NCBI RefSeq assembly: GCF_024323335.1
Contig: NC_066580.1
Span: 441,707,351 to 441,771,350 of the forward strand
DNA length: 64,000 bases
From: Lathyrus oleraceus
Lineage: Eukaryota > Streptophyta > Magnoliopsida > Fabales > Fabaceae
Direction of reading: 5' to 3'
Shown here: in pieces, positions 3,549 to 63,991 of the stretch
How positions within the stretch are numbered: position 1 is the first letter of the stretch
Layout: every line of letters starts with the position of its first letter
Position numbers and translations under genes: made by a program
Notes under the pieces: generated by a model
Told to the model about the DNA's origin: nothing
What the model saw: only the letters and a program-made list of their open reading frames with translations
The model's database searches: none

Positions 3549-5437
3549 GAGCACTATCCCCACTCATTTTTCAAGCTTGAAAGCCAAAAAACCTTTGTCC
3601 AAATCACATTCAAGCTCCCTCTTTTTAACCTAAACCCTAACTCACCCAAACCCTCTTTTCTCCTTTGAACCGCCCAACCACCATGTAAAAAATCCACCAT
3701 CTCCACACAACAAAAAACAGTAGCAAACTTGTAACCTTCACTTACATAATCATTCACCACCACCACATAAACATACAAATTTCTTCCCTTCCATTTTTCT
3801 ACCACAACAACCATAACCACCCTCTTCCAAGCTTTTTGCTTCATTCTCAAACCCAAACACAACAACAACCTAGTTTTGACACCACAATCTTGATAATATT
3901 TTGGATTCAAACTCCTTGATATTTTTGGTTTTGTTTTGTGTTTGAAAATTGATTTTTACTCTTAAGTTGTATTTTGAGAGATATTTGAGTTAACTTTGAG
4001 ACAAGTGGTTTTTGTTGGGTTTACACCCTTTTGGGGATTTTTTGCTCTTACTACTTTTTATCCACCATTTTCAATCAAACTTTGTTTCTTGTTGTTATAT
4101 TTATGTGGTTGATGAGTTCTATTAAATCATGACCATGGTTGTTTAGAGTTGATTAAATCTTCAATGTATCAAACCTATTAATGGTTTATCAATAGATCAT
4201 TCATGATACTTTGAGGCATTGATAGATTGCCTCTATTTCAACCATGCTTGGGACATTTGATACATAGATGAAACCATTTCCTTTACATTGTTCCTTGTTA
4301 TCATTTAATATTTATTGTTGACTTCTTGTTACATTTATTTGGTTGATGAGTTCTATTAGATCATGACCATGGTTGTTTAGAGTTGATTAAATCTTCAATA
4401 CTTCAAACCTATTAATGGTTGATCAATAGATCATTCATGATACTTTGAGGCATTGATAGATTACCTCTATTTCAACCATACTTGGGTCATTTGATACATA
4501 GATGAAACCATTTTCTTTACATCAATTTGTTATTCTATTTGCTTATTGTTATTCTACTAACCACTAACCATTAACCACTAACTTCTAACATTTATATTAT
4601 TGCACTTTACTTCCTTGAAATTTATTTTATTGTTCATTTACATTCAAGTCCTCATTATCATCATCATTGTACAAACTCATCATGCATGTTTATTTACTTG
4701 TTATTTATTTTATTGTCATCATACATTAAAAATAACAAAAACATGATAAAATTATAAGACCAAAAAATATCCACTCCACTCTTAATCAACTTGGACTTAG
4801 AGGATTTCATCTTAGGACCTTTGCTTGGAGGCCTTCTTTCACTCTTTGTGATACTTTGTAAACATTTGGATTTTCTTCCGTAACTTACATGCATGTTGTA
4901 AGAATGGCATCATGGCACCACCTTGGGGGACATGTTTGTAAGACCATTATCCTTTGTTTAACCTAGGTCACTTTTGCACACAAAAGGCTTTCTCTTGGGC
5001 TACCTTACAATGAGACTCTTTAATTTCTTGTTGGTTACTTTGCATTCATGTTGCATAAGCCAAATTTCATAATTAAATAAAACAAACCCTTGATTCAACG
5101 TCAAGTGGCATTTTTATAATCAAATTCAAAAGACTTAATAATTACGATTATTATTGTGCGCCACGAGCCTTAAGTGGTGGAGAATGAGTGAGAATGGAGC
5201 ATTCCTACCCTTACTCTGATTATTTTAGATGCAAGACGCTTGGCTTGTTTTCTAGAATAATCACCTCCGCCCATAGACTTTAGTACAATATAATCACAAA
5301 CATTCTTTCATAAAACCCTTATTCAAGGTAAAAACAATACAACTCATCAAACTCTTTTTTGTGCCTTAGGGCATCGTCCCGAAAACCCTTTTTTCAAAGG
5401 TAAAATCAACCAACACACAAATATTTTCTACTCCGAA

Positions 5438-5654
5438 CTACGGAGCTCTGATTCCTCATTCCCGAATGAGTGATACGTAGGCACAAGGGCCCTAATCCTT
5501 GGTGAGGACTATAATAACAAAAACACCCCCTTCTTTTTCACACATTCTTTTGAAAATAAAACAATAATAGATAAATCCCATGTATGTAAAACAACCTAAA
5601 TGTTTCCCATGGAGTACCATGGACGTAAGGGGTGCTAATACTTTCCCCTTACGT
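5438..5654 (+). other. Structured U5 module, copy 1 (hairpins H0, H1, H2)
   Basis: H0 is an outer pair CTACG (5438-5442) with CGTAG (5476-5480) enclosing CTCATT (5455-5460) with AATGAG (5465-5470). H1 is CCATGG-AGTA-CCATGG at 5607-5622. H2 is ACGTAAGGGG (5623-5632) with CCCCTTACGT (5645-5654), ten perfect pairs around a loop holding TGCTAATAC. The same layout recurs in other LTRs of the window with different stem sequences. Confidence 0.7.
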
Positions 5655-5875
5655 AACCGACTTCCGAACCCAAATCTCGGTTGCGAGACCGATTCCTTAT
5701 TCTCTTTTAGCGCTTCCCGTGCGTGTCTCTCTTCCGAGGGTTTTATCGACTATTTCCCCTCTCCTCTCTGATAGAGGTAAACTAAATAAAATTCGGTGGC
5801 GACTCTTCTGACTTTGCCTCTCTTTGGCATTCTCTTTAGTCCCGGTTCCGTTATCGTGAAATTCCGGTAGCGACA

Positions 5876-5989: not shown

Positions 5990-6319
5990 TTCTTTTCACC
6001 TACCACCATTAGTTCTTTGAACTACGGAGCTCTGAATTCCTCATTGCATTATGAGGATACGTATACATGAGGGCCCCAATCCTCACCGAGCACTCTATTT
6101 ATTTATTCCCCTTTCCCAATTCTTTTACGAGTAATCTTAGATATCACACATATTCGGACGAGAATAATCTAAACGGTTCCCATGGAGTACCATGGATGTT
6201 TGGGGTGTTAATACCTCCCCCTTGCATAACCGACTTCCTTACCCAACATATCTCTTTCCCTCGGGTTTTATCGACGTTTTCCCTTTCCTTCGAGAATAAA
6301 TAAAGTTTGATGGCGACTC
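5990..6319 (+). mobile_element. Detached U5 fragment of a second Ogre-type LTR
   Basis: It repeats the order of the preceding U5: ACTACGGAGCTCTGAATTCC, CCATGG-AGTA-CCATGG at 6180-6195, GGGGTGTTAATACC, CATAACCGACTTCC and TGGCGACTCTG. H0 inner stem is CCTCAT (6039-6044) with ATGAGG (6051-6056). H2 at 6196-6227 is decayed in the middle. The sequence differs from copy 1 enough to be another element, not a tandem duplication of it. Confidence 0.65.
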
Positions 6320-22070: not shown

Positions 22071-22250
22071 CTACGGGGTTTTGATCCCTCATTTTATATT
22101 GGTACGTAGGCACAAGTCCGAAGGTCTTGTCAAACACAAAAATACAATTAATGAATTCTTTTCTCATCCCCTCACTCTATTTATTGCAAACATCATTTTA
22201 TACAAAAACACATATGCACACAAGAAAGGGCTTCCTAGGAGTACCTAGGA
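22071..22250 (+). other. U5 module, copy 3 (H0 remnant and H1)
   Basis: The outer H0 pair CTACG (22071-22075) with CGTAG (22105-22109) is kept, while the inner stem is decayed. H1 is TCCTAGG-AGTA-CCTAGGA at 22233-22250, seven pairs. H2 is destroyed by the TAC expansion. Confidence 0.6.
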
Positions 22251-26323: not shown

Positions 26324-26518
26324 CTACGAGGTTTTGATCCTTTACGGGTACGTAGGCATAAGACTCAATGTCTTTCCAAATCATCAAATAATAAAAAGAT
26401 GTTCTTTTTCTCATCTTCCCAATCACATAGCAAACAATTTTAAACTAAACACATATATTTAAAAGGTTCCTGTAGAGTACTACAGATGATTAGGATGCTA
26501 ATACCTTTCCTTTTTCAT
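26324..26518 (+). other. U5 module, copy 4 (H0 outer stem, H1, H2)
   Basis: Outer H0 pair CTACG (26324-26328) with CGTAG (26351-26355). H1 is CTGTAG-AGTA-CTACAG at 26470-26485; the arms are complementary although they share little with the CCATGG arms elsewhere. H2 is ATGA..AGGA (26486-26495) facing TCC..TTCAT (26508-26518), imperfect. Confidence 0.65.
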
Positions 26519-27169: not shown

Positions 27170-28863
27170 TTTTAGGTTAGGGTTAGGGTTAGGTTGAGGA
27201 AGAAGATGAAGATTCATCTTCTTCAGAGTTAGGGTTCATCCAAGATGGTTATGCTTCTTCATTTTTAAGGTTAGGGTTAATCCATAAAGAGGTTGGGGTT
27301 AAGGTTCCAAGTTAGGGTTCTTGATCTGGAAATTTCCTGGATTAAGGGTTTGAAGGTATGAAGATCTCGGTTGAACTTCAACCGGAGATCTGGGTTTTAT
27401 GGTAGTTTTAGGGGCGACTTTGGGCTAGGAACGGTGGTCGGGGAAAGGGATCAGGGTGAGTGCGAGAGAGAGTGTTTAGAGAGAAGTCAAAGTAGAGAGA
27501 GAAGAAGAATTAGAAAATTAAATGGATGAAAGGATTTTTGAATAAAGACCTTGTTCATGTTCCCTCTTATGCATGCCAAGTGGCACTCGGTGAGGCTACC
27601 GATTAGTTGACTATCCCAGTCAACTGATGGTCCCCTTCCACATGTTTAACATATACCTCATTTTGACTATCAATATGGTCCCTCCATTGCAATTACTTTT
27701 TTTACTAAGTATACTCATCCAACGCACCCTAAAAGATCAGCTTGGATTTCGTTGGATCAATCCAACGCTTCTGGACGAGAGTCAATCGCTGACTCTCTCT
27801 ATGGACTCCCTGACTACATATTGGGCTCAGAGTCTAATGGGTTCTCTCCCCTTATTATTAGTTCCCCCAGTTAGAGGCCCATTGCTAGTATAATTAAATA
27901 TATACCCCCTACATTTGTATTTATTTATTCATTTTCTTTATCTTTGTTTTCTTAATAAATATTATTTTTAGATTAATCCTTGATTAATGTAAGATTAATA
28001 TTAATACTTATTTTAATTAGGTTGATTAAAAAATATAATTAAATAATTAATTAAAGTTTTTATCTTATTAACAAAAAATATCTAAAATCTAATTAAGTTT
28101 TTTATGATAACTTTTTTGATTAGTGTTGTTACTAATATTATTAAGATAAAAATTAGGGTTAATTAAGCTAATTAGATTGCTCAATAATTAAGGTTAAATG
28201 ATTAAGCAAAAATATTAAAAATATAACATCATATAATTTTCTTTTTTTATTAGATAAATATATGTACAAATATCATTTTCTTAAATAAAATTAACTATAA
28301 CATTTTGCAATTAACAAAGTCAATTAAAATCAATTTCACACAGTCAAATTATAAGTCTTCTGCCTTTGCGTATCGAGGCATTTGTTTCAAATCAAACATC
28401 TCTTCGCCCCCGATGCATTAAGAATTTTCAAAATATAAAATCAACAAACAAACAAACATTTTCAAGAAGAACTACGGTGCTCTGCTCCTTCATCAAACAT
28501 GAGGGTACGTAGGCATATAGTTGTAGCACTCTAGCGAGTACAATAACCAAAAAACCTTTTCTTGGTCCTTATTTTTTAATCAAACATTTTCCTTCAATAA
28601 TATAATTCCATGTTAATAAGTAATTAAACAATAATGAATAATAAAAGCAAACTTCCCTTAGACAAACACACACTAACCCTAGATTTAGAGAAGGGTCTCA
28701 TTGAGTACAATGGAGGTGAGGGGTGCCTAATACCTTCCCATTACTTAATCGACTTTCGGACCTTAGTCTCTCACCCTTATCTATTAGGTTTTATCATTAC
28801 TTCCTTGTTCCTTAGGAACAAATAAAAGATGATGATGACTCTGTAATTTTTCTAGTCGCGACA
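27170..28863 (+). mobile_element. Partial Ogre-type LTR in front of the leader
   Basis: Only the right part is convincing. U5 has ACTACGGTGCTCTG, ACGTAGGCATA, CATTG-AGTA-CAATG and GGGGTGCCTAATACC, then ATGATGACTCTG and TCGCGACAGCTGGGA. The last string looks like an LTR end fused to a shortened primer site, so the PBS is not intact. The left part is AT-rich, with GGTTAGGG repeats near 27175 and a GA-rich tract near 27460. No LTR start was found, so the left edge is a guess. Confidence 0.5.
28472..28746 (+). other. U5 module, copy 5 (H0, H1, H2)
   Basis: H0 has outer CTACG (28472-28476) with CGTAG (28508-28512) and inner CCTTCAT (28487-28493) with ATGAGGG (28499-28505), seven pairs including one G-U. 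H1 is CATTG-AGTA-CAATG with a flanking T-G pair at 28698-28713. H2 is AGGTGAGGGG (28714-28723) with CCCATTACTT (28737-28746), nine of ten pairs allowing G-U. Confidence 0.65.
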
Positions 28864-29759: not shown

Positions 29760-30281
29760 AAACTAAAAATATGGAAGAATCTTGGACCTTTTGAATTACC
29801 CTGTACAAAAGAGGCCTTGACCGCTCTAGCACAATTCTTTGATCCTACACTAAGGTGTTTTCAACTTCAAGATTTCCAGTTGGCTTCGACTCTTTAATAG
29901 TTTAACAAGGTCCTAGAGACTCTTAAACCCACAAAAGGTCCCTTCAAAATAATAGGGTATCATCCTGTAGTGGAAGAAATGGCTTATCACCTTAACATTC
30001 ATGGCACTGACTTGCAAGCCAACCTAAGGGTTCATGGGGACTTCAAAGGCTTACCAAGGGAATATCTAGAGGAACGAGCTACTAATTTCAAAACTCCCCT
30101 GAAGTGGGATGCTTTAGATAGTATCATGATCCTCCTCATCTTTGAATTAGTACTCTTTCCTACTGAAGAAGACTTTGTGAATTATGCAACAATTAATCTA
30201 TTTTTTACTGTAAAAGTTGGGGAAGAAGACCATATACATGCTCTCCTTGCAGATGTCTATCATACTCTCCATCAAAGACAT
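29760..30281 (+). pseudogene. Ogre ORF1 (DUF7745-type protein), N-terminal part
   Basis: A reading frame with a few stops contains ALAQFFDPTLRCFQLQDFQL, then LKWDALDSIMILLIFELVLF, EEDFVNYATINLFF and LLADVYHTLHQRH. These match the conserved core of DUF7745 proteins, which in legumes are encoded upstream of gag in Ogre-type elements; their function is unknown. Two adjacent stops lie in the stretch before 29970. The frame runs into the Athila LTR at 30282 and resumes beyond it at 48590. The start codon was not determined. Confidence 0.7.
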
Positions 30282-30511
30282 TGATAACATGAAACTATAT
30301 CACATTTTTAGACTTGATTTAATTAAATTATATTGTTATTTGATTCAATTTATTTTATATTATTCGATATTACTTGGTATTCTCTTATTATTTATTTCAG
30401 GTAACATTATTTGAAGCATGTGTGAAAAAGAAAGAAAAGGGGTGCAAAAAGAGGATTCTCTAGGAAAAGCATCTCACAAAGCCCAACCCACGTTTGGGGA
30501 AAGCAAAATGG

Positions 30512-30599
30512 CTGTGACGACCGCCACACTCACGTGCCGAGCGTCACGCCCCTTTACCTAGTGTTACGACCGTAACACATAGTGTGACGGCCGTCACAC
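30512..30599. repeat. Cluster of 18-bp palindromes in Athila U3
   Basis: GTGTGACG-GC-CGTCACAC (30582-30599) and GTGTTACG-AC-CGTAACAC (30561-30578) have perfect 8-bp arms. An imperfect third copy (TGTGACG-AC-CGCCACA) is at about 30513-30528. The centre ACG-NN-CGT is constant, while the outer bases change in compensated pairs. The 3' LTR repeats the cluster at 47072-47159. Confidence 0.9.
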
Positions 30600-30729
30600 C
30601 CCCACTCCTATATTTTGGCTTTGACGCGCGTAACAGAAGCACGTTCTCTCCTATTTTTCCTCTTGACTCGTTGACACTTTGGAACCCTACTGAAGATGCT
30701 TTTGAGGAAACGGTTATTTTATGGATGAA

Positions 30730-30737
30730 TATAAATA
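30730..30737 (+). promoter_or_regulatory. TATA box of the Athila 5' LTR
   Basis: TATAAATA in ATGAATATAAATAGAT, about 130 bp after the palindrome cluster. The same box is at 47290-47297 in the 3' LTR. Confidence 0.75.
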
Positions 30738-32033
30738 GATCCCAAAAGATCCAATAAGGGGATAGACCTACTCCGTGCAATATTTTCCCTGCTTTCTAAT
30801 TTTCCAGCATTCTATTTTCTTAGCATTTTATTTTCTTTTCTTTGCTAGCTTAATTTACTAAGCATTCAATTTATTTTCTCACGATAGTTTCTACACCGAA
30901 AACTATTGTGTAATTTTTACTGGATCTAACCTTACGTTAGATCATAGTATTTTATTTCTTTGTTTTTACCTTTCTGTCTGATCAAGAATTGTGAAGAACA
31001 AATCCAACCGACTTGTGGTGGAGTGTTTGAGCATCGAAGCTAGGGGATAAAACCAAGATTTCTAGTAATTTTCCAGGTTCATTAATTAATTGAGTTATTA
31101 TTTTAATTTACATATGCTATGTGCCGCTATTTATATATATAGTTTGTTTATTATGGCCGTATTTATGCATGATTGTTGTTTATGCGTGTTTAGCATGTCC
31201 GGCTAATTAATTTAGATATCGGTATGTAAAGTAAGCGGAATAAAGGAATCAAAACTGAGTTGGTTTAAATTTATTTAAAACTATAGTCACTCTTTTTCTG
31301 GTCTCAATTTACAGAGTTAATACCAAAGTTTTTGTACGAGAGTAAAAGACATAAAGAAGTTAAAATCAATAGAACGACGGTTTGAGCTTTTAACTGGACA
31401 GTGTAAATTGAACATTAACTTTAAATCAGGGCGAAAGCAATTTTTAAAGTTAATTAAATTCCAATCATTTTCAAAAATTATTTTTAAAGGTTAAATGTGA
31501 GGACGAGAGTTAAGCATTTAGGTTTAATCATATAGTCTAAGTCAACAGAGCAAGAGTTTGAGACGAGGGTGTTTAAACGGTTAGTGTTTTCTTAAAAAGA
31601 GTTTCTATAGATTCTATTGCTTTCAAAAGGTGATTTTAGATTTAACTAAATACTGAGAGCGTACGTTAATATAAAGTCATAGTCTGATTCAACAGAGCGA
31701 GAGTTTGAGGAAAAGACTTTTAATTGATAGTGTCTACTGAAAGGACTTATTTTAAAATTAAGAAAAAGACCAACGAAGATTTGATTCCCTAATTACGACG
31801 AACTACATACCGATATCCGTGTTATTTGATATTTAATCTAGATCTAAATTTAGTTTTACTATTCCCCCTAATCATCAAAGTATCATCCGCCTTAGCTTTA
31901 CGCAGTAACCCTAGAAAAACGGTATATCGATTCATTAAGTCCCTGTGGGATCAATATCTTTTAAAACTACACGATTAGACTGTGCAGTTGCAGTTAATAC
32001 CCCAATAGACTCACAAAGCCGCGATCAAGTTTT

Positions 32034-32051
32034 TGGCGCCGTTGCCGGGGA
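32034..32051 (+). other. Primer-binding site, tRNA-Asp type
   Basis: TGGCGCCGTTGCCGGGGA lies six bases after the 5' LTR. It is the exact complement expected for the 3' end of plant tRNA-Asp and is the usual primer site of Athila elements. Confidence 0.92.
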
Positions 32052-32137
32052 CTTCTATTTAGTCGATATCGCAACTCTTCTGTTACGCTGTAGAGACTAA
32101 GGCAATTTTTATTTTTCCTTCTTTTTCGTTGATTTGT

Positions 32138-34457
32138 ATGCCACACACTCGCTCACAAGGCGAACCGTACTACTTACGAATCAACGACGTTGAACGATAT
32201 CTCCGATTATTACGACGAATTCGGGAGTATCGTGCTACAAACAATCTTCCTCCAATCGAAATTCCTGATCTCAAAATCTTCTTCCTTCGACGATACCAGC
32301 AATGGCAGAACCAGCTCGAGCTCTTCGAGATTACGTCGCTCCATCGCAAGATGAGCCGCATTCGAGTATTGCTCCACCCGCAATCGAAGCGAACAACTTC
32401 GAACTTAAACCTTCACTGTTGCAGGCAGTGCAACAGAACCAATTTTCTGGAAATCCTACCGAGGATCCAAACCTTCATTTATCCGTATTTGTCCAATACG
32501 CTGATACCGTTAAAGCTAATGGTGTCACTTCAGAGGCAATTCGACTTCGTCTCTTTCCTTTCTCGTTAAGAGATAAAGCTAGAAGATGGCTTCAGTCTCT
32601 TCCTTCCAACTCAGTCACCACATGGAATGAGTTGAAGAAAGTCTTTCTTGCCCGATATTTTCCCCCAAGCAAAACAGCTATGTTGAGAGCCCAGATAAAT
32701 GGATTTAAGCAAAAAGACAACGAATCTCTTTTCGAAGCATGGGAAAGATACAAGGACATGATGAGACTTTGCCCACACCATGGTTTGGAGGACTGGTTAG
32801 TAATTCGTACCTTCTACAATGGTCTCTTGTACAACACAAGGTTAACAATAGACGCCGTCGCCGGTGGTGCGCTTATGGATAAACCTTACGCTGACGCTTA
32901 TCAACTTATCGAGAGCATGGCCCAAAATCATTATTAGTGGGGAAGCGACCGAACAATGGTAGAGAAACCTCAAATAAAAGGGGGCATGTACGAGATAAGT
33001 AGCCTTGATCATGTTAATGCAAAAGTGGATGCTCTTGCCCAGAAAATTGAAAGTTTAAATGTATCACCTCCAGCCACCGTGGTTGCCGTAACTCAAAATT
33101 GCGAAGTCTGTGGAATTCAAGGTCACACGCCTACAGATTATCAACTCCTAACAGGAATTCAAATAGAGCAGGTGAACTATGCTCAAGGAAATCCCTACTC
33201 GCATACCTATAACTCAAACTGGAAGAACCATCCTAACTTTTCATATAAAAGTAACAACGCTCTATACGCACCAGGTCAAGCTCTCAGTCAAGCCCCAACT
33301 ATACCTCCTGGATATCAAAAGTCGACCCCATCTACACCTAACAATAACGTTCCTAGGAAATCCAATTTGGAAATCATGATGGAGAACTTCATAGCTTCTC
33401 AACAGCAAACCAATAAAGAGTTCTTAAACCAGAATGTACACACTAACGAACAGATTAAACAACTAGCAAGTAAAGTAGATGCCCTGGCTACCCATAACAA
33501 AATGCTGGAAACAGAAATCACGCAAGTAGCTCAACAACAAGCGCCTACTGCTGCCCCAACTGGTACCTTTCCTGGACAGCCCCAACCTAATCCGAAAGGT
33601 CACGCTCATGCAATTATATTAAGAAGTGGAACAGAGGTAGAAGGACCGTCTGACCCAAGGATTGAGAACCAAAACTCTAAAAAGTCAACTGAGGAAGAAG
33701 GTAGACCTAAGGAAAAGGAAGAGTGTAATAAAGAAATCGTAGAAAACAAAGAACCTTATGTACCTCCGCCGCCTTACAAACCACCTATCCCTTATCCTCA
33801 AAGGCTAATTAAAACCAAAGACGCGGGCCAATTTAAAAAATTTGTTGACCTACTGAAACAATTAAACATCACAATTCCTTTTACAGAAGCTATTACACAG
33901 ATGCCTTCATATGCTAAGTTCTTAAAAGAAATTTTATCTAATAAAAGGAAACTTGAAGACAGCGAAACCGTTACACTCACTGCTGAGTGTAGCGCAATAA
34001 TCCAAAATATGCCTCCTAAACTTAAAGATCCTAGTAGTTTTTCTATACCCTGTCATATAGGAAAATTTGTCATAGATAAAGCCTTATGCGATTTAGGAGT
34101 CGGTATCAGTGTTATGCCCTTGTCCATATGCAAGAAACTTGAAATGGGAGAATTAAGACCAACTAAAATGTCTGTGCAATTAGCAGATCGTTCCGTTAGA
34201 TATCCCGTAGGAATTCTTGAAAATGTTCCCGTGCGCATAGGTCAATTCTACATTCCCGCCGATTTTATAATTATGGACATAAGAGAAGATGAAGTTACCC
34301 CCATTATATTGGGAAGACCCTTCTTAGCAACCGTCGGTGATATCATAGACGTAAAACGAGGACGACTCACTTTCGAAGTAGGAGAAGAGAAAATTGAGTT
34401 TATTCTTTCCAAATTTTTGAAAGCACCTGCAATAGAAGACACATGTTACTTCATGGA
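32138..34457 (+). pseudogene. Athila gag-protease ORF with a frameshift and an in-frame stop
   Basis: Gag starts with MPHTRSQG at 32138. The frame changes near 32300 and continues as the frame with RDYVAPSQDEP and IEANNFELKP. The gag core shows FPFSLRDKARRWLQSLP, FLARYFPPSKTA and EAWERYKDMMRLCPHH. An in-frame TAG at 32935 stands where relatives read CAG. A degenerate zinc knuckle (CEVCGIQGH, last Cys replaced by Tyr) is near 33105. Protease follows with LCDLGVGISVMP at about 34085: the catalytic Asp is kept, but the usual DLGAS reads DLGVG. VTPIILGRPFLATVGD is the protease flap and end. At 34457 the frame runs into a solo LTR and resumes at 39140. Confidence 0.85.
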
Positions 34458-34613
34458 TGTCGCATCCGCGAAAAACAACCGGCGGGCTAAAATAAAGCAA
34501 ACAGAGCCGCCACCGTGCGTTATTTATCCCAAAAGAGGGAAAGGAAACGCTCGAAGTAAACCTGGAAAAGACATGGTCTCGCGACCAAAGAGAGATGGGA
34601 TCGAGAGTCGGTT

Positions 34614-34831
34614 ATGCGAAGGGAAGGTATTAGCACCCCTACGCATCCGTCGTACTCGACGGGATCCACGCTCAAAAAGAATAGAAGAAAGGTTGCTAAA
34701 CACTGCTCAAAAGAATGCACACACACACACTAGAATAAAACACAGATGGAAGAAGAGGGGAAAAGGCTCGCTAGGATATTGCATCCTATGCCTACGTATC
34801 TCATCTGGAATGAGAATCAGAGCTACCGTAG
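34614..34831 (-). other. U5 module, copy 6 in the solo LTR (H2, H1, H0)
   Basis: On the minus strand, H0 has outer CTACG/CGTAG (34827-34831 and 34792-34796) and inner TCTCAT/ATGAGA (34799-34804 and 34810-34815). H1 is CCGTCG-AGTA-CGACGG at 34647-34662. H2 is ATGCGTAGGG with CCCTTCGCAT (34637-34646 and 34614-34623) with one mismatch. H1 arms differ completely from CCATGG but remain perfectly paired. Confidence 0.7.
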
Positions 34832-34877
34832 TTCGGCTCACGCACGCCGAAACAAAACACACACACAAGAAACCGAC

Positions 34878-35015
34878 TGCCAATCGCTGGACTTACGTCA
34901 GACTCCACACAAACAGGCAAACATGGAAACCGAACGCCAATCGCTGGACTTACATCAGACTCCGAACCAACAAACACACACAGGAAACCAACTGCCAATC
35001 GCTGGACTTATGTCG
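34878..35015. repeat. Three tandem 57-58 bp units within solo LTR 1
   Basis: GCCAATCGCTGGACTTA begins at 34879, 34936 and 34994, each followed by a variable A/C-rich spacer. A related array is in solo LTR 2 near 50995-51150. Confidence 0.8.
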
Positions 35016-35184
35016 GACTCCAAACACACCAAAGGGGTTAACTGGACGCTGAGTCGTCAAAAGAAACAAAAAAGGTTGAACAAACAAGCTAACAGGGAGT
35101 CTGGTACTCGAGCCTGCTAGCTGTCAAGCAAACACACACCAAAAAGAAAAAGGGTGCCCGGAGAGACCTCGTACGATCTCCTGC

Positions 35185-35223
35185 CTACGTACCTCATCTG
35201 GTATGAGGATCAGGGCGACGTAG
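35185..35223 (-). other. Second H0 element in solo LTR 1
   Basis: Outer pair CTACGT (35185-35190) with ACGTAG (35218-35223), inner pair CCTCAT (35192-35197) with ATGAGG (35203-35208). It is a duplicate of the H0 at 34792-34831. Confidence 0.65.
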
Positions 35224-37065
35224 TTCCCCTTAACAGGGAAAGAACTTCTAACTTAACCAGAGACTGGGAAATGACAAACTAGAAGGGAGCCTGACTCGAG
35301 CCTAATAGTTATCATGCAATCCGCAATGGTCCTAGGTTAAGGTTTCTAGCTAACTTGCACAGGGAGCAAGCTATCCTAAGCAGCACAAGCAAAGCAATAC
35401 AAACACAAGAGCAAGCATACACACAGTTAGCACACACTATATACAAACAAAGTGGGCTCACACAGGGTTAGGCTTTAGTCAAGGGGTCATGTCAACCTCG
35501 ACAAACAAGCCACTATATCAGGGTGATGTTAGCTCTTAACCCTAACATTGAGAGTTAGGGTGAAGCAGATGAAATAGGAAGTGAGGGGTGTGCCTCACAG
35601 CTCTTATCCCTGGCCAGGGAGAGCTTTTGAATAATAGAAGGTGTGGGAGTTCAGAAAGTAGGAACTCTTCTCCACAAGGATTAGACTCTATAAGATCTTG
35701 GGTTAAGATCCACAATGCATCAACATGTTATGTGAGCAAAGGGATGACACACTGAATAGCAGGAGATGGACTACACATCTCTTTTATCTGCCAATTGCCT
35801 TATCAAAGGACTTTTCCTGCTTAGCACAAAATTAAACACACAAAGACATTGCCTCTTAAGGAGGGCTTCAGACAGGTGCCTGCCCCAGTAACAGGACAGG
35901 TCTTCCAGACTACATGCAGTCAGAAAGTTATACCTCAAGTGGTTAAGCAACCAAGCAAGAGCAAATGAAAGTTCAAAATAACTTAAGCAACTTATGCACC
36001 TGAAAACAATCTAACTCAGTCAGTATACAAGTCAAAAAATCAAACAGTCAATCAATAGTCAACAGTCCACAGTACACAGTCAAACAAGCAATGCAACAAT
36101 GTGCAAGGCACAAGCTCAACTCAAATGAGCTAAGAGCCACCTACAAAACAAGTCAAGATTAGTCAACATCAACCACATAATCCAATTCAAGCAAATGAAT
36201 CAATCCTCTTATGGCCATGTACTTCTTAACCTGAAAACAAAGCTCAAACATAAGCAACAAACCACTAGGGCAAGGCCTAGGGTCAAAGAAGGAGAAATAA
36301 TTCAAAACAGAAGCTGAAATTTGACATGATGAAACCTCAAACAATTATTGACACATAGAAAAAAGTCTCACATTCATATCATTTACCAAATGCATTTCAT
36401 GATCAATCTAAGTTCAAGACAATTTTAAAGTCCACATGTGATCAACCAGAAAGATAAATCTCAATTAAATCAGAAATGATTCACAAAAATCTGGAAAAAT
36501 TCATACATACTCAAGACATCTCATATGATTAGCATGCAAAAAATCAGAACAATTGAGCATCATTTGATAGGGTAAACACAAAGCATAAGATGAACATGCA
36601 AAGGTGTGACACAAATTGTCACACCTACTTAGAAAAATCACAAAACAGAAATGATAATTGATAAAAATACCAAATCAACACCAAAATGTCAAGGAGTGAA
36701 TCTAGTTTCATCATGAAAATTTCCAGAAGCATTGGATCAACACACATTATTTCACAAAGGAAAAGGCAAGCAATGTTCAAAATATGACACATGTTAACAT
36801 TCTCTAGCACCAATTAAATTTCAGCCAAGCACAATTTCTGGAAAAATGCTCATAAAAAACTAGAAACAATAAGGAGCATGATGCAAAAATTCTCACATTA
36901 TTTGGATGAATATTTATTTAGTTATGAATTTTTAAAGTGGAAGAAAAATTAAAAAATCATGAATGAGCATGTACATGAATGGATGAAGAAAATGAAATAA
37001 AATGAAAAGCAATTTGGAAAAGATGCTGGAGCCAGGAATCGAACATGGTGCATTTTCAAAAGTGA

Positions 37066-37100
37066 ATTGGCGCGCTGCATGGCAAATCCATGCAGCCAAT
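37066..37100. other. Strong hairpin inside solo LTR 1
   Basis: GCTGCATGG (37074-37082) and CCATGCAGC (37088-37096) are perfect 9-bp arms around a 5-base loop. ATTGG and CCAAT continue the pairing outside a short internal bulge. It lies in the transcribed part of the LTR relative to its minus-strand TATA box. Confidence 0.75.
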
Positions 37101-39134
37101 CAGCGCCCAGCCCTAGCGAACCTAAGAGAACGGTTTAGCATGGCCTATGGGAACGGTTTAGCGTGGTCTATGGAATCATGAAAACCGTTGCCTAAAACTA
37201 TCATCATCTTCTTCACGTGTTCTTCGTGTGAACAGTACATGTTCATCATCATCATGAACAATTTTCTCAAAAATGGAAATTAAGCACATGTATAGCTAGG
37301 TCTTTCGATGTACATCAAGAATCCACCATTAATTTAACAAGAAACAACATAACATGCATGAATCGAAGGATTTAAGTTTCATCATCAAAACTTTAAACAC
37401 ATGTAACTTCATGAATATTCCACCAAATCACTCGATTCGAATTGCAGAATCATCACCATTAAGAGATCTACATGAATCACACAACAATTGCAAGAAATAA
37501 AGAGATCGAAAAAATGACCTCTTGAAGTGCAGCTTTCGAATCCACGTGTTTCAGCGCCTTGCAATGCTTCCAATGTGTTCTAGCAAGCTTGTATGAGTGT
37601 ATGGATGAAGTCTTGATGTTCAATTGGCCTTGATTCAACAGAATTTGAAATTCACCATTGATGAACAAGCTTCATGTATGCTTCCAAACTGCACGAATTG
37701 GCTTGGTTCCAGCTTCAATCTTGCTCACAAACGCTTAAGAATGATGAATTAATCAAGAAAAATGCATGAGATGTGAAGAAATCTTAAGAAAAAATGAGAG
37801 AGAATTTTGAGAGACTTTGAGAATTTCTAGATCTAGAATTGGAAAGTGTGAAAATTCTGTTATGATTTGTGTTATATATGAGCTCTTAATCATGATTAAT
37901 TAAGTTCTAATCAAATGCTAATGAAAAATGGTTAATTTGGAAGTGTTTTGCAAAAATTGGGATTTCACCCTTATGCATGGGATGCATGTGAATAGTGCAC
38001 GAATTTGCAATGTATTTTCTCTCAAAATATTATTTTAAGGCCAATGGAATTGATAGAATGTGTAAACAATGCCTTATTTTTAAATTTTAATTTTCCCTCC
38101 AAAAGTCAATTGAAAATGCAAATATTTATATGAATGGAATGCATGCCATGTAATGCCAATTTTGGAAACTAGAAGTTGAAACAAGAATGTTGCAAAAAGA
38201 GCCACTTGATTTGGGATTATGGTTTGAAAGTTATGCCCCTTTGAAGTTCAATGTTCATTTGACCAAGATTGATCCATATCTCTTCAACCACAAATGAGAA
38301 ATTGATGTTCTTGGACATTTTGGAAATGGGAGAGAAAGACCTACAACTTTCATGTTCAACAAAATTTCATTTGAAGCATTTTGGGTCATGTAATTTGAAG
38401 TTGAAGTTGGATGAAAACCTTTCCATTTTTGGAAAGTTCAAATTATAGGTCACTTTCTATTTTTGGCAAATTTTGACTGGACCTCAAATCCTTCAAAGGA
38501 AGTGTTTGAAATGTCAAATGAGACTTGTTTGAACATGAATGAAGTATTTCCCATCACTTCCCACCTCCAAAAATCACAGTTGACTTGTGGTTGACTTTTG
38601 CAGTTGACTGATAGATGACTTGGCTATGCACAGATGAATTTGAGCCTCAATCTTCTGATGAAATGGCTCCAAAATGAAACCCTAGCTTTCACAAGTTCAA
38701 TAAAACCATATGATGATCCCCATCTCAATGAAGACCCCATCTCCTTACAAAACCCTGACTGGCATAATGCAACTGATTAGGGTTGACCAGAGGTCAAAAC
38801 CCTAATCCCAAGGAATTTGATCAGGAATAATGAACCTCTTGGTGATGATAAGACCATGATGATGGTGATGTACCATTGCAACCAAGATAAAGATCAACCT
38901 CCCTGAGGAACCAATAAACCCTAATTGAAGCACAAACCCTCAGATGGCTAGTGATCAATTCAATGAAACCCTCAGGCTTGCATCTCTTTTAACCTCTTTT
39001 ATCTTCTGAGCAAAACTTAGGAGGATGACTTGTCCATTACATGACATGCAATATGCAATGACTAATGCCCTAAAAATGAAATACAATATGTTAAGCTAGT
39101 CCCAAGAGAGGAGGGCAAATTTTGAGGTGTTACA

Positions 39135-42100
39135 ATGGATATCATCGATGAATGCATAAAAGAAACAGAATTAGAAAATGACGAATTGTCCGACTATCGT
39201 GTAGAAGACAGACTGAATCAATGTTTAGCAATAACATCAGATCCTACGCAATGCCTTAAAAAACCAACCCTCGACCTGAAAACACTTCCCAAAAATCTGA
39301 GATATGAATTCCTAGACTTAGAACTTGAACGACCAGTGATAGTCAATGCAGACCTAGGAAAACTTGAAACCGAAAAACTCCTACATATTTTAAGAAAATA
39401 TCCAACCGCACTAGGATACAACATCACCGATCTTAAAGGGATAAGTCCTTCTATTTGTATGCACCGCATCATGCTAGAAGAAGACTGTAAAACTTCTAGG
39501 GAACATCAGAGGTGACTAAACCCGATCCTGAGTGAGGTAGTGAAGAAGGAAGTAATGAAGTTATTAGAGGCAGGTATCATATATCCTATATCCGATAGCA
39601 AATGGGTTAGTCCTGTACACGTAGTACCAAAGAAAGGAGGTATAACAGTGATCGAAAATGAAAAAGGAGAAACTATAACCAAACGAATTGAATCGGGATG
39701 GAGAATGTGCATTGACTATAGGAAGCTAAACAAAGCAACCCGAAAAGATCATTTTCCTTTACCATTCATAGACCAGATGTTAGAGCGACTAGCCAAGCAT
39801 TCCACTTCTGCTATCTGGACGGTTACTCAGGTTTCTTTCAAATACCAATTCATCCTGATGACCAAGAAAATACAACGTTCGCATGTCCTTTTGGTACCTT
39901 CGCTTATCGACGAATGCCGTTTGGCTTGTGCAATGCTCCTGCAACCTTCCAAAGGTGCATGATGGCAATATTCGCCGATTTTCTCGAAAACATCATGGAA
40001 GTCTTTATGGATGACTTTTCCGTATGCGGACAAAGTTTCGAAGAATATCTTGAAAACCTAGAAAGAGTTCTAGAACGATGTGTAAAAGTAAACCTAGTAC
40101 TTAATTGGGAAAAATGTCACTTTATGGTACAAGAAGGAATTGTTTTAGGACACATCATATCAAATAGAGGAATTGAAGTAGACAAAGCCAAAATAGAAGT
40201 AATCGAAAACCTTCAACCTCCGAAAACTGTGAGAGAAATACGAAGCTTCTTAGGACATGCCGGTTTTTACCGACGATTCATTAAAGATTTCTCTAAAATA
40301 ACTAAACCTTTAACCGGACTATTAATGAAAGACGCTGAATTCATCTTCGACAATAAATGTTTAGAAGAATTTCAAAGACTTAAACAAGCATTGATCTCCG
40401 CGCCCATAATGCAAACCCCGGATTGGAATGAACCTTTCGAAATAATGTGTGACGCAAGTGACTACACCGTGGGCGCTGTTTTAGGACAACGAAAGGATAA
40501 AAAACTTCACGTCATATATTATACGAGTAGAACTCTAGATGAAGCACAAATGAATTACGCAACGACCGAGAAAGAACTTTTAGCAGTAGTATTTGCACTA
40601 GATAAATTTCGTTCCTACTTGGTCGGAGCTAAAATAATCGTTTACACTGATCACGCTGCCATTAAGTACCTCTTAACAAAAAAGGACGCTAAACCTAGAC
40701 TCCTAAGGTGGATCTTGTTGCTACAAGAATATCATTTGGAAATCAAAGATAAAAAAGGAACTGAAAATGTAGTAGCAGATCACCTCTCTAGACTTGAAAA
40801 CCTGGAACCAGAAAGAACATCGATCAACGATGATTTCTCGTACGATAAACTTATAGCTAATTTGGAAGAAAATAGAGCTGATGAACAGGTAGAGACCACC
40901 TTGGCGGTATGCGTTACACCATGGTACGCTGATTTTGTCAATTATTTAGCCGCCGGAGTGGTTCCACTTGATTTATCCTACCAACAAAAGAAACGATTCT
41001 TCCATGACATAAAACATTACTACTGGGACGACCCTTTACTTTTCAAAAGAGGTCCCGATGGTATTTTCCGTCGCTGTATACCTGAAGAAGAGGTAGAAAG
41101 TATAATCCAACATTGTTATTCCGCTCCTTATGGTGGACATGCAAGTACATCCAAAACCTGCTCTAAAATCCTACAAGCCGGTCTTTATTGGCCAAACATA
41201 TGGAAGGATGTGCACGCCGCTGTCAAGAAATCCGATAGGTGTCAATGCATAGGAAACATATCTAGACGTGATGAAATGCCGCAAAAAGGCATTTTGTAAG
41301 TAGAAATTTTCGATGTGTGGGGAATAGATTTCATAGGACCTTTTCCACCTTCTTTTGGTAACAAGTACATACTCGTAGCGGTTGACTACGTATCAAAATG
41401 GATTGAGGCTATAGCTTCTCCAACAAACGACACACGAGTAGTAATTAGACTCTTTAAGCATATAATCTTTCCAAGATTTGGTGTCCCAAGAATAGTAGTC
41501 AGTGGCGGTGGATCTCATTTCATATCTAAGATACTCGAAAAATTATTGTTTAAGTATGGTGTAAAACATCGAGTAGCAACACCTTACCATCCTCAAACTA
41601 GTGGACAAGTGGAAGTGTCTAACAGAGAAATTAAACAGATATTGGAAAAAACAGTCGCTACATCGAGGAAAGACTGGTCATCAAAATTACCCGAAGCTTT
41701 ATGGGCATATCGAACCGCTTACAAAACTCCCATAGGAACAACTCCATTTAAGCTTATTTATGGTAAATCTTGCCACCTCCCAGTGGAGTTAGAACATAAG
41801 GCCTACTGGGCTATTCAAAATTTAAATTTAAACTATAAGGCCTCCGGTGAAAAGCGAATTCTTGATATAAACGAATTAGAGGAACTTAGACAAGACGCAT
41901 ACGAAAATGCCAAAATCTACAAGGAAAGAACGAAAAAATGGCATGATAAACGTATATCAAGGAAAACTTTCAAACAAGGCGATGTAGTCCTATTGTTTAA
42001 CTCTAGACTTAAGTTATTCCCAGGAAAACTACGCTCTAGGTGGTCTGGCCCGTTCCAAGTCACTAATGTCTTTCCTAGTGGGGCTATAGAAATTAAAGGA

Positions 42101-42220
42101 AAATATATTCAATCATTTATCGTAAACGGGCAACGTCTAAAACATTATCATTATGATGAAAACAATGAAGACTCGCAAGTCCTGCACTTAGACGTATTGT
42201 CTCCAAAATTAATAGATTAA
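39135..42220 (+). pseudogene. Athila RT-RNase H-integrase region, broken
   Basis: It continues the frame interrupted at 34457. Breaks: in-frame TGA at 39513 where relatives have an Arg codon; a one-base loss near 39802 that shifts frame just after LAKHS; in-frame TAA at 41297. RT motifs include [42 protein letters not shown] (before about 39975) and the catalytic FMDD near 40006. RNase H follows ([36 protein letters not shown]). The integrase core has [12 protein letters not shown], but the second acidic residue is lost (VVSGGGSHF in place of SDGGSHF). The zinc region lacks one Cys (KSDRCQ). The C-terminus ends near LSPKLID. The copy cannot code for active integrase. Confidence 0.88.
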
Positions 42221-42434
42221 CATTTAATAATTTTATGTCGAGCTTGCGACATTAAACAAAGCGCTTCGTGGGAGACAACCCACAAATTTTTATTTTTCTT
42301 TGATTATCCTTTTTGATTTTATTCAGTTTTCACTCTTCATTTTCTTTATTTTATTTTCCTCTTTTCTTCTTTCGGCATCTGGCCAAATCCTGACTAAATT
42401 CTTGTTTTCCTTTTCTTTAGTTAACACTAACCTG
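42221..42434 (+). other. Noncoding gap between integrase and ORF A
   Basis: It includes AGCGCTTCGTGGGAGACAAC followed by a pyrimidine-rich run. Sequences like the first often follow integrase in Athila-type elements. The pyrimidine run ending TTTTCTTTAG could be a splice acceptor tract for ORF A; this is inference. Confidence 0.45.
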
Positions 42435-43715
42435 ATGGGACATATTGATCGCATGGGTATCAAATTCCGAGGGAGAGCTCGGAGACAAAAATTTGAAGAA
42501 CTAGCTGAGAGAGAGATGCACCCAAGTTTTTATGCTGATGATTGTGCAATGACCGTTCTTGGGCTAAGAGATAGTGTCCTATATCTGCTGAGTCAAATAA
42601 GGTGGGAAACCACTCCTATTCGGAGATAATTTGTTACTTACCGGAGGCTAACTCTAGAATTCCTTAGCTCCTTGATTTATTTACCAAACCATGGAAAAGG
42701 AATAAACCGAGGTTTCATTCAATTCAGGATGTTCAATATGGAGTATCAGTATAACATTCAAGAATTTACTAACCTCTTAGGGTTCCCTACTTCTTTTGAC
42801 ACATTCACCATGAGCCAAGAAGACCTTTTTGAATATCGAGAGCTTGAGCATTTTTGGGGAAGTTTGACGGGAAATGACGACCCTGAGGAACATGAGTTTC
42901 TTTCTAGAAACATACATAACCCAGCGTTCAGTTATTTCCACAACATCCTAGCACACACTCTTTTTGGGAAAAGATCAAACATCACCACAGTATCACGTGA
43001 TGAACTCTTCATAATATTTTGTGCTTCCCAGGACCGTCCAGTGAATGGTGCCACTTATATGTTGGCGAGTTTTGACCTCCTCATTCAAGATGACCGTGCA
43101 CCGATTCAAATAGGAGGATTGATAATTATGATTGCTAATGCCATTGGATTACGCCAACCCATGCTTGATTTGAACCCTTTTTGTGGTATTCAGCCTATGA
43201 ATATACTTTTCCTTTTCAACACTATGTTTATAGGAAACCTTGGACCTGAAGAGTTTGAACTATTTATTAACAACCAAGCTTTTTACCTATTCACCATGCC
43301 CAACCCGATGACTAGTGTCCATAACCGAAATAATTGGCTCTACAACCTGGATGGAATACCTTCTCCTGTTAGATCTGTTGAAACCATCCAAGATTATGAG
43401 ATTCTTGACAACCAGATTCCTTATGCTGAGTCTGATCCGCAGACACCAACTGGTTACCATGATGCTGCCTCTCCACCTCATCCTATCCCATCTGCTGAAT
43501 CGGCAATACCTAATCTTAGACATCATATGCCCGGAACTGATTATAATACCGCTATCCAAGCCTTGATGTCAGAACAAGATGCCATTAGAGAAGAGTTAAC
43601 TAACATGGGACATGAATTTCTGGAATACATGAGTAGAATGACAAATCAATTCCACGAGTTGCTACACCGTGTCAATTCCTTTGCTCCTCCGACAAGAGAT
43701 TCTACAAGTGACTAG
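42435..43715 (+). pseudogene. Athila 3' ORF A, env position, one in-frame stop
   Basis: From ATG at 42435 the frame is open to TAG at 43713-43715 except for one TAA at 42627. Regions in order: basic N-terminus (RGRARRQKFEEL); LTLEFLSSL; FRMFNMEYQYNIQEFTNLLG; HNPAFSYFHNILAHTLFG; DELFIIFCAS; VNGATYMLASFD; IQIGGLIIMIANAIGL; NWLYNLDG; a proline/serine linker; and a C-terminal coiled coil (EQDAIREELTNMGHEF). I see no signal peptide or convincing transmembrane anchor, so it does not look like an envelope. It resembles the unnamed proteins found in this position of Athila elements (possibly the Pfam ATHILA family). ORF B downstream is a diverged paralogue. Confidence 0.7.
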
Positions 43716-44070
43716 AAGAATTGCAGTTAACTAGTTTTAGTTTTAGGAAATTTATAGTTTCGTTTGACATTATTTTTATCTTAGTATTTACTTTTCGCAT
43801 GTTTTATTTTATTTTCAAATATTCCATTATGTTTATTTTTATGAAGCTATTGGCATTATTGATTAAATTAAATTTTATCTTGATCTATGCACTATCTAAA
43901 GTTACCAATAATGATATTTAATGTATGCTACTACTTACATGGCCTATTAGAAAATATATATATACACTATGGTGTGGTAGAGTAGCATTCATGGCAATTC
44001 AAAAAAATAAAACAATAGCAAATATAATAAACAAAACTAAGAAAAAAACTTTTTTTAAGCTTCCACGCAT
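43716..44070. other. Gene-free AT-rich spacer between ORF A and the internal promoter
   Basis: T-rich sequence, then an A-rich run with TATATATATACA near 43955. No gene is supported; the short open frames here have no recognisable content. Confidence 0.5.
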
Positions 44071-44354
44071 GCTGTCACGAGCGTAGTGATTGTTGCATGC
44101 TCAGAAGTGTGACGAGCGTCACACATACTTTCACGGTCGCCACGCAACCCATGACGCCCGTAACACACTCTGTCACGAGCGTGACAGCGTGATTCCTCGT
44201 AAACGTTGTTGACCGTTATGGTAATGACCGTTACTCCCCATCTTTTCATCTCCCCATTCAACCCACCTCTTTACTCCATTCCACTCACATTCATCCACAT
44301 TTATTTTTCTCTCACCCACTCCTCTTCCCAATTTCAAAACTCTTCCTATAAATA
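44071..44354 (+). promoter_or_regulatory. Putative internal promoter of ORF B: palindrome cluster plus TATA box
   Basis: GTGTGACG-AG-CGTCACAC (44107-44124) and CTGTCACG-AG-CGTGACAG (44170-44187) have perfect 8-bp arms, and decayed copies lie at 44071-44090 and around 44132-44165. TATAAATA is at 44347-44354 in CTTCCTATAAATACC, followed by a C/A-rich leader of about 70 bases before the ATG at 44452. The ACG-NN-CGT palindrome core and its position before a TATA box are the same as in this element's LTR U3. Promoter function is inferred from the layout. Confidence 0.6.
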
Positions 44355-44451
44355 CCTACAATACATTTCTTCCTACACCACATCAGTCCAACAAACCATT
44401 CTATACAAATATATTTCACCCTTTTTTCCTTCTTTCTACCTACCTATCAAT

Positions 44452-45783: not shown

Positions 45784-45847
45784 GTTTGGGTTCCTTCTTT
45801 TTTCCTTTTCTTTCGTTTTTTTGAAACATTGGGGACAATGTTTCATT

Positions 45848-45867
45848 TAAGTGTAGGGGGGAAAACT
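45848..45867 (+). other. Internal PPT-like purine tract
   Basis: TTAAGTGTAGGGGGGAAAAC closely resembles the terminal tract (CTAAGTGTGGGGGAGTT) and also has a hairpin just upstream. It could prime plus-strand synthesis internally. Confidence 0.5.
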
Positions 45868-46824
45868 TTGTTTCAGTTATATTTATTTACCTTTCAATAT
45901 TTCCCTTTCAAGTATGTTATTTCTCTTTTATATATATATATCAAAAATATATTTTAAGTCAAGTCCCTAGTGTGATTTTTTTTTATTATCTATTCCCCTC
46001 AAATTTTCTTGAGCCATAACAAACTTCAACACACTCAATAAGTATAAAGGATGCTTATTTTATAAAACCTGAGTGAAATTAAGACAAAATTATTACCGCC
46101 CCAGCACTCTAAAAACCTCAGCATGTTAGATCAGGCTAAGTACCTATTATACCAATTCCTTGCACTTTTAGTTTTATAGTAACCCCGAGTAGTTTATACG
46201 AGGAGTCGGCACCATCTTAATAGCAAACTACGTGGAGAGCCGATGAATATAAGTGAAGGATTCCCAAAACAACATATTAAAAATCAGGAAATGCACTAAT
46301 TAAGTTAGGTGATCCTTACCCGATCATTTAATCCAAAGGTTGCGGACCCTGCAAAAACATAGTATGAACGACCCATTGTGAGTTGGCTCAACGGTTTCTG
46401 GTGCTGAACTTGGTAGGGCGGACTACGGTCCGATCCCCCGCAATTTGCATTGGACCAAATAACGAAGTTACCCAACTTACGTACCAGAACTTCTAGCTAA
46501 AAGGGGATCAGAATCGCTAACCGGTTACTCCACTATGTGCGCGAAAGGATAAAGGGGTTAATGTGATTTCGCTAGAATGAAAACGGGTGAAATAAGAGTA
46601 AAAGAACTAGGCCGAGCTATAATAGCATGACTCGAACTGGTTTGCATAAGGTGAGGTTATCTAGTGCTGTTACAGTAATTTTTGATGTTAAGATTAAGCT
46701 CAGGTTATTTCTAAACGAGATTTACTTGCAACCTATTATGAATTGATGTGTGTTTGGAAATGTTATCTGGCTAATATTTGAAATCGATTTCCACATTGTA
46801 TCTTGCTTGAGGACAAGCAAAAGT

Positions 46825-50643: not shown

Positions 50644-50853
50644 ATGCGAAGGGAAGGTATTAGCACCCCTACGCATCCGTCGTACTCGACGGGATCCACG
50701 CACAAAAGGAAGGAAAATGGTTGCTAAAAACACTGCTCAAACTCACACACACTGGCTGAAAAGAGACACAGGAAACAAACAAGGCTGACTCGGCAGGATA
50801 TCGCATCCTGGGCCTACTTAGTCTATCAGGCATAGACATCAGAGTCAAAGTAG
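50644..50853 (-). other. U5 module, copy 7 in solo LTR 2 (H2, H1, H0)
   Basis: H1 is CCGTCG-AGTA-CGACGG at 50677-50692 and H2 is 50644-50676. H0 has outer CTACTT (50814-50819) with AAGTAG (50848-50853) and inner GTCTAT (50821-50826) with ATAGAC (50832-50837). Both H0 stems differ from the CTACG and CTCAT stems elsewhere yet pair perfectly. Confidence 0.7.
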
Positions 50854-63975: not shown

Positions 63976-63991
63976 CCATGGATAGCCATGG
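63976..63991 (+). other. H1 hairpin, copy 8
   Basis: CCATGG-ATAG-CCATGG, the only copy whose loop is not AGTA. Followed by ATACAAAGG at the window edge, where H2 should begin. Confidence 0.6.

Follow-up and report, generated by a model that had tools for sequence, protein, structure and literature searches.

In avian retroviruses the leader upstream of the primer-binding site (PBS) pairs with the T arm of the primer tRNA (the U5-TPsiC contact), and packaging signals of the MLV type consist of tandem hairpins with GACG loops. The primer activation signal (PAS) of HIV-1 is presented in one account as a leader segment upstream of the PBS that is complementary to the T arm of the primer tRNA (PMC7793103). 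For Ty1, boxes 0, 1 and 2.1 are reported to make a separate second contact with the T and D arms of the primer tRNA, and this contact is needed for initiation (PMC5454406); the bipartite PBS of Ty3 is reported to make a second contact with the T and D arms that is likewise needed for initiation (PMC5371799).

The LTRs described here, from the genome of Lathyrus oleraceus, carry two contiguous hairpins, H1 and H2, followed by a box that resembles the antisense of tRNA-Arg. Our tentative reading, which we hold at somewhat less than an even chance, is that H1-H2 and the box form a leader element of Tat/Ogre retrotransposons in which a double hairpin and a second primer contact together help to start reverse transcription. 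In the 64,000-nt stretch of DNA that was analysed (the window), all eight H1 hairpins named in the preliminary description were found, at 5607, 6180, 22234, 26470, 28699 and 63976 on the plus strand and at 34647 and 50677 on the minus strand; the stem at 22234 has 7 bp, and the one at 28699 has 5 bp, or 6 if a T-G pair is admitted. The features are given below by coordinates and strand, with the evidence in parentheses.

5607..5622, plus strand: H1, CCATGG-AGTA-CCATGG (sequence, hairpin search, folding, model match)
5623..5654, plus strand: H2, abutting H1, stem of 10 bp and loop of 12 nt (folding, model match)
5658..5690, plus strand: antisense tRNA-Arg segment, resembling the complement of the T arm, variable loop and anticodon arm (alignment, duplex energy)
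5785..5790, plus strand: AATAAA, possible polyadenylation signal, 4 nt upstream of GGTGGCGACTC (sequence)
5795..5805, plus strand: GGTGGCGACTC, LTR-internal repeat of the first 9 nt of the PBS, TGGCGACTC (sequence)
6180..6195, plus strand: H1, CCATGG-AGTA-CCATGG (hairpin search, folding, model match)
6196..6227, plus strand: H2, formed in part in the MFE structure (folding, model match)
22233..22250, plus strand: H1 with the 7-bp stem TCCTAGG/CCTAGGA (hairpin search, model match of 19.9 bits)
26470..26485, plus strand: H1, CTGTAG-AGTA-CTACAG (hairpin search, folding, model match)
26486..26518, plus strand: H2, pairing partial (folding, model match)
28698..28713, plus strand: H1, TCATTG-AGTA-CAATGG, five Watson-Crick pairs and T-G (hairpin search, model match)
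28714..28746, plus strand: H2 by alignment (alignment, model match)
34647..34662, minus strand: H1, CCGTCG-AGTA-CGACGG (hairpin search, folding, model match)
34614..34646, minus strand: H2 (folding, model match)
50677..50692, minus strand: H1, CCGTCG-AGTA-CGACGG (sequence, hairpin search, model match)
50644..50676, minus strand: H2 (sequence, model match)
63976..63991, plus strand: H1, CCATGG-ATAG-CCATGG, its H2 cut by the end of the window (hairpin search)

Hairpins with an AGTA loop and a stem of at least 5 bp occur eight times in the window, against a mean of 1.66 over all 256 tetraloops; TATA/ATAT and AGGG/CCCT hairpins are more numerous still and are probably repeats. Seven of the eight are H1 copies. 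The other, at 58650 (TATGTGAGTACACATA), was rejected as an LTR copy: the structure model gives no match there and H2 is not seen. The AGTA loop had been called conserved, which holds for seven of the eight hairpins in the window (63976 has ATAG) and for 87 of 112 sampled copies, the remainder having ATAA (19/112) or other loops (6/112). The block downstream of H1 that had been described as shared is GGGTGCTAATACC, the inner stem and loop of H2; it is exact only in the two minus-strand copies and occurs as variants in others. At 22234 a CTA repeat has taken the place of the H2 loop and 3' arm, and at 63976 H2 runs off the end of the window.

Other features were seen in the window. A further conserved block, CTACGG...GATACGTA, with short inverted repeats and present in several families, lies at about 5430-5490 and 6018-6080, and similar blocks stand upstream of H1 in several other loci. 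A tandem repeat with many overlapping self-matches occupies 417-1804. An Athila-type element with an LTR identity of 98.2% and a PBS of a different type extends from 30281 to 48589 on the plus strand, and one minus-strand LTR with H1-H2 sits inside it, near 34.5 kb; the LTRs of the Athila-type element itself give no match to the structure model with E <1. Searched against Rfam, the H1-H2 sites in the window give nothing that attains a family's gathering score; the one match is elsewhere, to the plant snoRNA family snoR71 (32680-32786, minus strand, 49.8 bits), within the Athila-type element.

Further copies were taken from a single genome, the window's own (3.80 Gb, 1550 contigs). Ninety loci were fetched on GGTGGCGACTC alone (L009-L038, L039-L058, L059-L078, L099-L118), because copies should not be chosen for the hairpin, and 28 on GGGTGCTAATACC (L001-L008, L079-L098); loci L001-L118 all come from the first 4.4 Mb of contig C1. 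Loci and window together hold 128 distinct segments upstream of GGTGGCGACTC (at most one mismatch), a number into which some LTRs enter twice, through the internal motif as well as the PBS. An H2-like motif is present in 125 of them; of the other three, two come from anchors in a single truncated LTR (L051) and one is a window match with one mismatch. Two H2-like matches foreign to this element (in L001 and at window position 43349) were removed before all counts. The alignment comprises 113 copies, three of them added by hand from the window; leaving out the 22234 copy, which lost H2, gives the set of 112 copies, and alignment A1 holds 91 distinct rows.

In these copies H1 has six pairs and a 4-nt loop, and H2, with ten pairs and a loop of 12-13 nt, begins at the base right after H1 with no linker, so that H1-H2 is about 48 nt long. 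The mean top-residue frequency is 0.55 upstream, 0.79 in H1 and 0.87 in H2. The arms of H1 had been said to differ almost completely between families and yet to stay complementary. Complementarity was borne out, the middle triplets being complementary in 102 of 112 copies and falling into eight classes; the changes between classes, seen in 113 copies, are mainly confined to the three middle pairs, with the inner closing pair G-C in 109/113 and each of the two outer pairs C-G in 99/113. Single-sequence folding places H1 in the MFE structure of 10 of 11 fragments, with z from -4.83 (the 5607 copy, whose 60-nt H1-H2 fragment has an MFE of -25.4 kcal/mol) to -0.04; L030 and L038 fold no better than their shuffles (z -0.16 and -0.04), and H1 at 28698..28713 and H2 at 28714..28746 are absent from the MFE structure of their 60-nt fragment. 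In leader fragments of 274 and 266 nt the five inner H1 pairs have a probability of at least 0.98. RNAalifold, run without guidance, picks the inner four pairs of H1 and six pairs of H2.

The pairing exceeds chance. In A1, 95.2% of the H1 cells are paired (71.6% after shuffling) and the H1 covariation score is 0.587 (shuffled 0.146; as high in 0/500 shuffles); shifting the partner by 1-3 columns leaves no more than 0.089. H1 and H2 jointly are 91.3% paired, with a covariation of 0.447 against 0.179 and again 0/500 shuffles reaching the score. Simple counts in H1 are not above the shuffles, either for pairs changed on both sides (253/500) or for further pair types (500/500); for both hairpins jointly the figures are 13/500 and 250/500. 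In H2, pair 5 fails to form in 28 of the 91 rows and pair 6 in 33.

Covariation was also set against phylogeny with a test of our own that resembles R-scape (G statistic with average-product correction) and in which the null replays the substitutions of each branch at random columns. Two trees were used, one from all columns (113 copies, 200 simulations) and one from the flanks only (112 copies, 600 simulations). With either tree, H1 pairs 5, 4 and 3 and H2 pair 2 fill the first four places among 13,530 column pairs. With the flank-only tree H1 pairs 5, 4 and 3 take ranks 1, 2 and 4 of the 13,530; over all pairs, the score of pair 5 is reached in 0/600 simulations, pair 4 has an E of 0.32, H2 pair 2 one of 0.38 and pair 3 one of 0.50, and column pairs that no stem predicts follow with E >2. 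When only the 16 preset pairs are considered, E is 0.0004 for H1 pair 4 and 0.0006 for pair 3. The outer and closing pairs of H1 scarcely vary and carry little information on covariation, and H2 covaries more weakly than H1, its pairs 4-7 scoring within the null of the flank-only tree. That H1 stems change in a compensated fashion is well supported, and the conserved structure with compensated stems proposed in the preliminary description stands above the phylogenetic null on two trees. Pairing is also kept in copies with close relatives: of the 35 that share 97% identity or more with their closest sampled neighbour, 32 have all six H1 pairs intact, and as that neighbour becomes more distant the figures are 34/42, 13/19 and 10/16, a fall that agrees with decay after insertion.

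Compensated arms can arise in another way, since template switching within a hairpin (quasi-palindrome correction) makes its arms complementary. Reverse transcriptase might have copied one arm onto the other here, with no selection on the pairing, and the mode of change in H1 would suit such copying: on the flank-only tree the pair-keeping double-change branches number 10, 3 and 4 at pairs 5, 4 and 3, that is 17 in all, against two pair-keeping single changes and seven breaking ones, so that the middle pairs change as whole pairs. A hairpin free of selection should, however, drift, whereas stem length, loop, position and closing pairs are constant across families with little likeness in their flanks. 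We consider this origin improbable.

The orientation of wobble pairs bears on the same question and on the strand in use. Raw counts in the 112 copies give 110 G-U against 17 A-C in H2 and 12 against 12 in H1 (34 against 6 and 6 against 6 in 26 family representatives). The H2 contrast of 110 to 17 was dropped as proof of a sense RNA after a column-shuffle control: with the 3' letters shuffled per pair, 172.8 G-U and 80.1 A-C are expected and the difference is equalled in 1058/2000 shuffles. Relative to those shuffles A-C falls to 0.21 and G-U to 0.64 in H2, and both fall to 0.3 in H1; the stronger loss of A-C than of G-U is the sole feature of H2 that points to RNA. Genome-wide, H1 pair 3 occurs as G-U at 3,585 sites and as A-C at 1,642 (reversed control 0 each), and pair 2 as C-A at 8,457 (control 1,099) and as U-G at 3,774 (control 2,278). 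The commoner single-base variant lies on the 3' arm at both pairs, though the arms mirror each other in DNA, and for this reason the totals are to be read as a sign that the 3' arm is looser and not that G-U is tolerated. Paired sites (same strand, same class, less than 30 kb apart, as expected of the two LTRs of one insertion) give another picture at pair 3, with 40 for G-U and 4 for A-C among the first 100 matches listed for each (Fisher P 3e-10; 0.5 and 0.2 pairs by chance). This result favours RNA, and a few lucky lineages could produce the same. Read by eye, the matches listed for pair 2 contain two H1-type pairs of sites for C-A and one for U-G.

On strand these counts are mixed, and sense RNA is the putative active form of H1-H2. 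Arm copying by reverse transcriptase would accord with the overall lack of a G-U preference in H1; it would also remove the G-U pairs that H2 retains in number, and A-C variants of H1 pair 3 are rare in LTR pairs among the first 100 matches listed. Since an inverted repeat in DNA and an RNA hairpin look alike and the strand counts are mixed, H1 could be read as a site in the LTR for a dimeric DNA-binding protein, and some H1 arms are themselves palindromes. A protein half-site should show the opposite of what is seen, namely arms that vary freely over eight classes around a spacer that stays AGTA or ATAA, and H2 abuts H1 at a fixed place; we give this DNA reading little credence. The failed strand argument from H2 and the split counts in H1 have lowered our confidence in the preferred leader element and in the two-site primer system described below, and raised it for the DNA repeat and for template switching.

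The pattern CCNNNGAGTACNNNGGA, in which the H1 loop and outer pairs are fixed and the middle is free, occurs at 166,075 sites genome-wide (reversed pattern 934), GGGTGCTAATACC exactly at 92,737 (reversed control 32) and GGTGGCGACTC at 124,097 (control 515); in family representatives GGTGGCGACTC lies about 105-170 nt downstream of the H2 core. Among the first 100 CCNNNGAGTACNNNGGA matches listed, read by eye, the middle triplets are Watson-Crick complementary in 92, four more differ by a G-T pair and four are mismatched, the chance expectation being 1 in 64. Pattern scans of IMG/VR gave either no match or 11 loci with the H2 loop only, in which H1 was not seen and model scores were weak (15.7-21 bits), and a scan of a second collection of genome contigs for the motif gave no match.

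A second RNase H between RT-RNase H and integrase is a hallmark of the Tat lineage. Such an arrangement is found in L120, where an ORF at 2460-5621 matches RVT_1, RT_RNaseH, RVT_3, H2C2 and rve (RT, RNase H, second RNase H and integrase) and is flanked by two LTRs with H1-H2 (C1:602982 and 616704); from this one element with its dual RNase H pol and from the tRNA-Arg PBS described below we take the host to be the Tat/Ogre lineage of Ty3/gypsy. Ogre proper has in addition an extra ORF before gag and an intron in pol. Medicago Ogre families are reported to have a PBS for tRNA-Arg (PMC2533021). The PBS was found within the searched stretch in 39 of 110 copies, many loci ending before it, and in 29 of the 39 it is TGGCGACTCTGCTGGGGA, which is fully complementary to the tRNA-Arg(ACG) genes of the same genome.

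H1 had been assigned to U5. Of 106 copies, 45 have an exact AATAAA that precedes GGTGGCGACTC by 4-6 nt; with this type of signal downstream of H1, R is as likely as U5. If AATAAA is the cleavage signal, H1-H2 would lie in R and be present at both RNA ends; TATA motifs, through which the transcript start was sought, identified none. Retroviral R hairpins serve in 3'-end processing or strand transfer, and H1-H2 could act likewise if H1 is inside R. We regard such a function as a slim prospect, with 61 of the 106 copies lacking the exact AATAAA at that place and the signal more than 100 nt away from H1.

The 50 nt directly 3' of H2 align with the antisense of tRNA-Arg(ACG). In 26 family representatives this box reaches a mean local score of 26.5, where tRNA with shuffled letters gives 16.2 (sd 1.28; 0/2000), and the score is 26.1 (0/2000) when the tRNA end that binds the PBS is left out; the controls reach 13.4 (segment upstream of H1), 17.0 (sense tRNA-Arg) and 18.7 (antisense tRNA-Leu). 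The mean duplex with tRNA nt 27-58 has -25.6 kcal/mol against -13.8 (sd 1.6; 0/500). The box thus has the complementarity to the primer tRNA outside its PBS-binding 3' end that marks a PAS-type element, with 7 of the 26 representatives not significant when taken singly (P >0.05). In the 5607 copy CGAACCCA-AATCTC-GGTTGCG-AGACC is matched to CGAACCCAGAATCTCTGGTTCCGTAGACC, and the segment 5658..5690 forms a duplex of -39.3 kcal/mol with tRNA-Arg. Conservation of the box is moderate (mean top-residue frequency 0.64 against 0.52 in the rest of the LTR), and its higher likeness across families mildly favours use. The box may be either a working second contact as in Ty1, Ty3 and HIV-1 or a relic of copied primer.

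In the leader element that we prefer, H1 and H2 would make up one two-hairpin unit, with H1 on its 5' side, within the R/U5 portion of a Tat/Ogre-type LTR retrotransposon RNA. The 3' end of tRNA-Arg(ACG) would anneal to the PBS, which starts about 192-286 nt after the H1 start, and its T arm, variable loop and anticodon arm could anneal, in the particle, to the box beside H2. The helices of H1 and H2 are probably stacked end to end and would hold this part of the leader in a fixed shape with the box available, which may promote or time the start of minus-strand synthesis. That the Tat/Ogre elements have such a two-site primer system, with tRNA-Arg(ACG) at the PBS and at a second LTR site framed by the covarying double hairpin, is possible and, in our estimate, less likely than not.

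Packaging, dimerisation and control of reverse transcription had all been suggested as roles. The last gains support from the antisense tRNA-Arg box and the PBS. Were H1-H2 mainly a packaging or dimerisation signal for Gag/nucleocapsid, the primer match would be a coincidence of a crowded leader or a relic; a fixed double-hairpin geometry with conserved loops would suit recognition by a protein, and the Ty1 leader is described as holding packaging and primer elements together (PMC5454406). A conserved self-complementary loop is missing, however, the ATAA class (19/112) lacks the GUAC of GAGUAC, and non-palindromic stems such as CCGTAG and CCGTCG are common, all of which disfavours dimerisation through loop-loop contact. 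We judge this alternative unlikely, if worth keeping in view.

Several observations concern tRNA-Arg-like sequences near these LTRs. Inside the LTR, at 5795-5805 and at the same place in other LTRs, GGTGGCGACTC repeats the 9 nt with which the PBS begins. Positions 5679-5690 and their equivalents form a GGTTGCGAGACC-type hairpin with a GNRA-like loop, which resembles the antisense of the tRNA-Arg anticodon arm. The likeness of the CCGTAG/CTACGG stem to the tRNA-Arg anticodon loop was set aside as chance, because it concerns one stem class only. In nine H1-H2 loci (L132-L140, on C1, C3 and C5) the PBS, about 250 nt after H1-H2, is prolonged by at least 7 nt into antisense tRNA-Arg; in L132, L133 and L137 the antisense runs for about 21 nt, as if RT had copied the primer past its usual stop, and copying past the PBS therefore does happen. 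An array of twelve tRNA-Arg(ACG)-like sequences, spaced for the most part at about 3.6 kb, lies at C6:4220063-4257874, and in the three loci taken from this array (L148-L150) H1-H2 stands about 250 nt upstream of each; the H1 of L148 is of the class CTGTAG.

Among the open-licence PMC papers listed we found no description of such an element, and older Ogre papers may hold one. Of the papers listed for the motifs themselves, none has a title that concerns plant LTRs. One recent review of the plant LTR life cycle does not mention packaging signal, dimerisation, secondary structure, hairpin or tRNA primer, from which the replication signals of plant LTR elements look little described. The overall reading of the preliminary description is upheld for the compensated structure, and the function is what we infer. 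H1-H2 with the box would provide a defined 48-nt structure and a tRNA contact in a very abundant family of a large plant genome. With the structure model such LTRs can be picked out in families whose flanks have little in common, and the natural compensated stem variants form a set for structure-function tests. If the two-site primer is true, a single plant genome carries a replication signal at more than 100,000 places, and structure alone is enough to find it.

Compared with the known systems, H1-H2 resembles the MLV-type tandem hairpins in being a neighbouring pair of retroelement leader hairpins whose loops are conserved, but its loops are AGTA or ATAA and 12-13 nt long instead of GACG. 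Like Ty1 and Ty3, as the cited accounts present them, it offers a candidate second and separate contact of the element RNA with the primer tRNA; unlike them, it involves another tRNA and a box that is placed within the LTR, on the 5' side of the PBS. It resembles the HIV-1 PAS, as far as the account cited describes it, and the avian U5-TPsiC contact in that a box upstream of the PBS shows complementarity to the primer's T arm. It differs from both in that the match spans the variable loop and anticodon arm as well, the tRNA is tRNA-Arg, the distance upstream is about 190-290 nt, and two contiguous covarying hairpins precede the candidate box.
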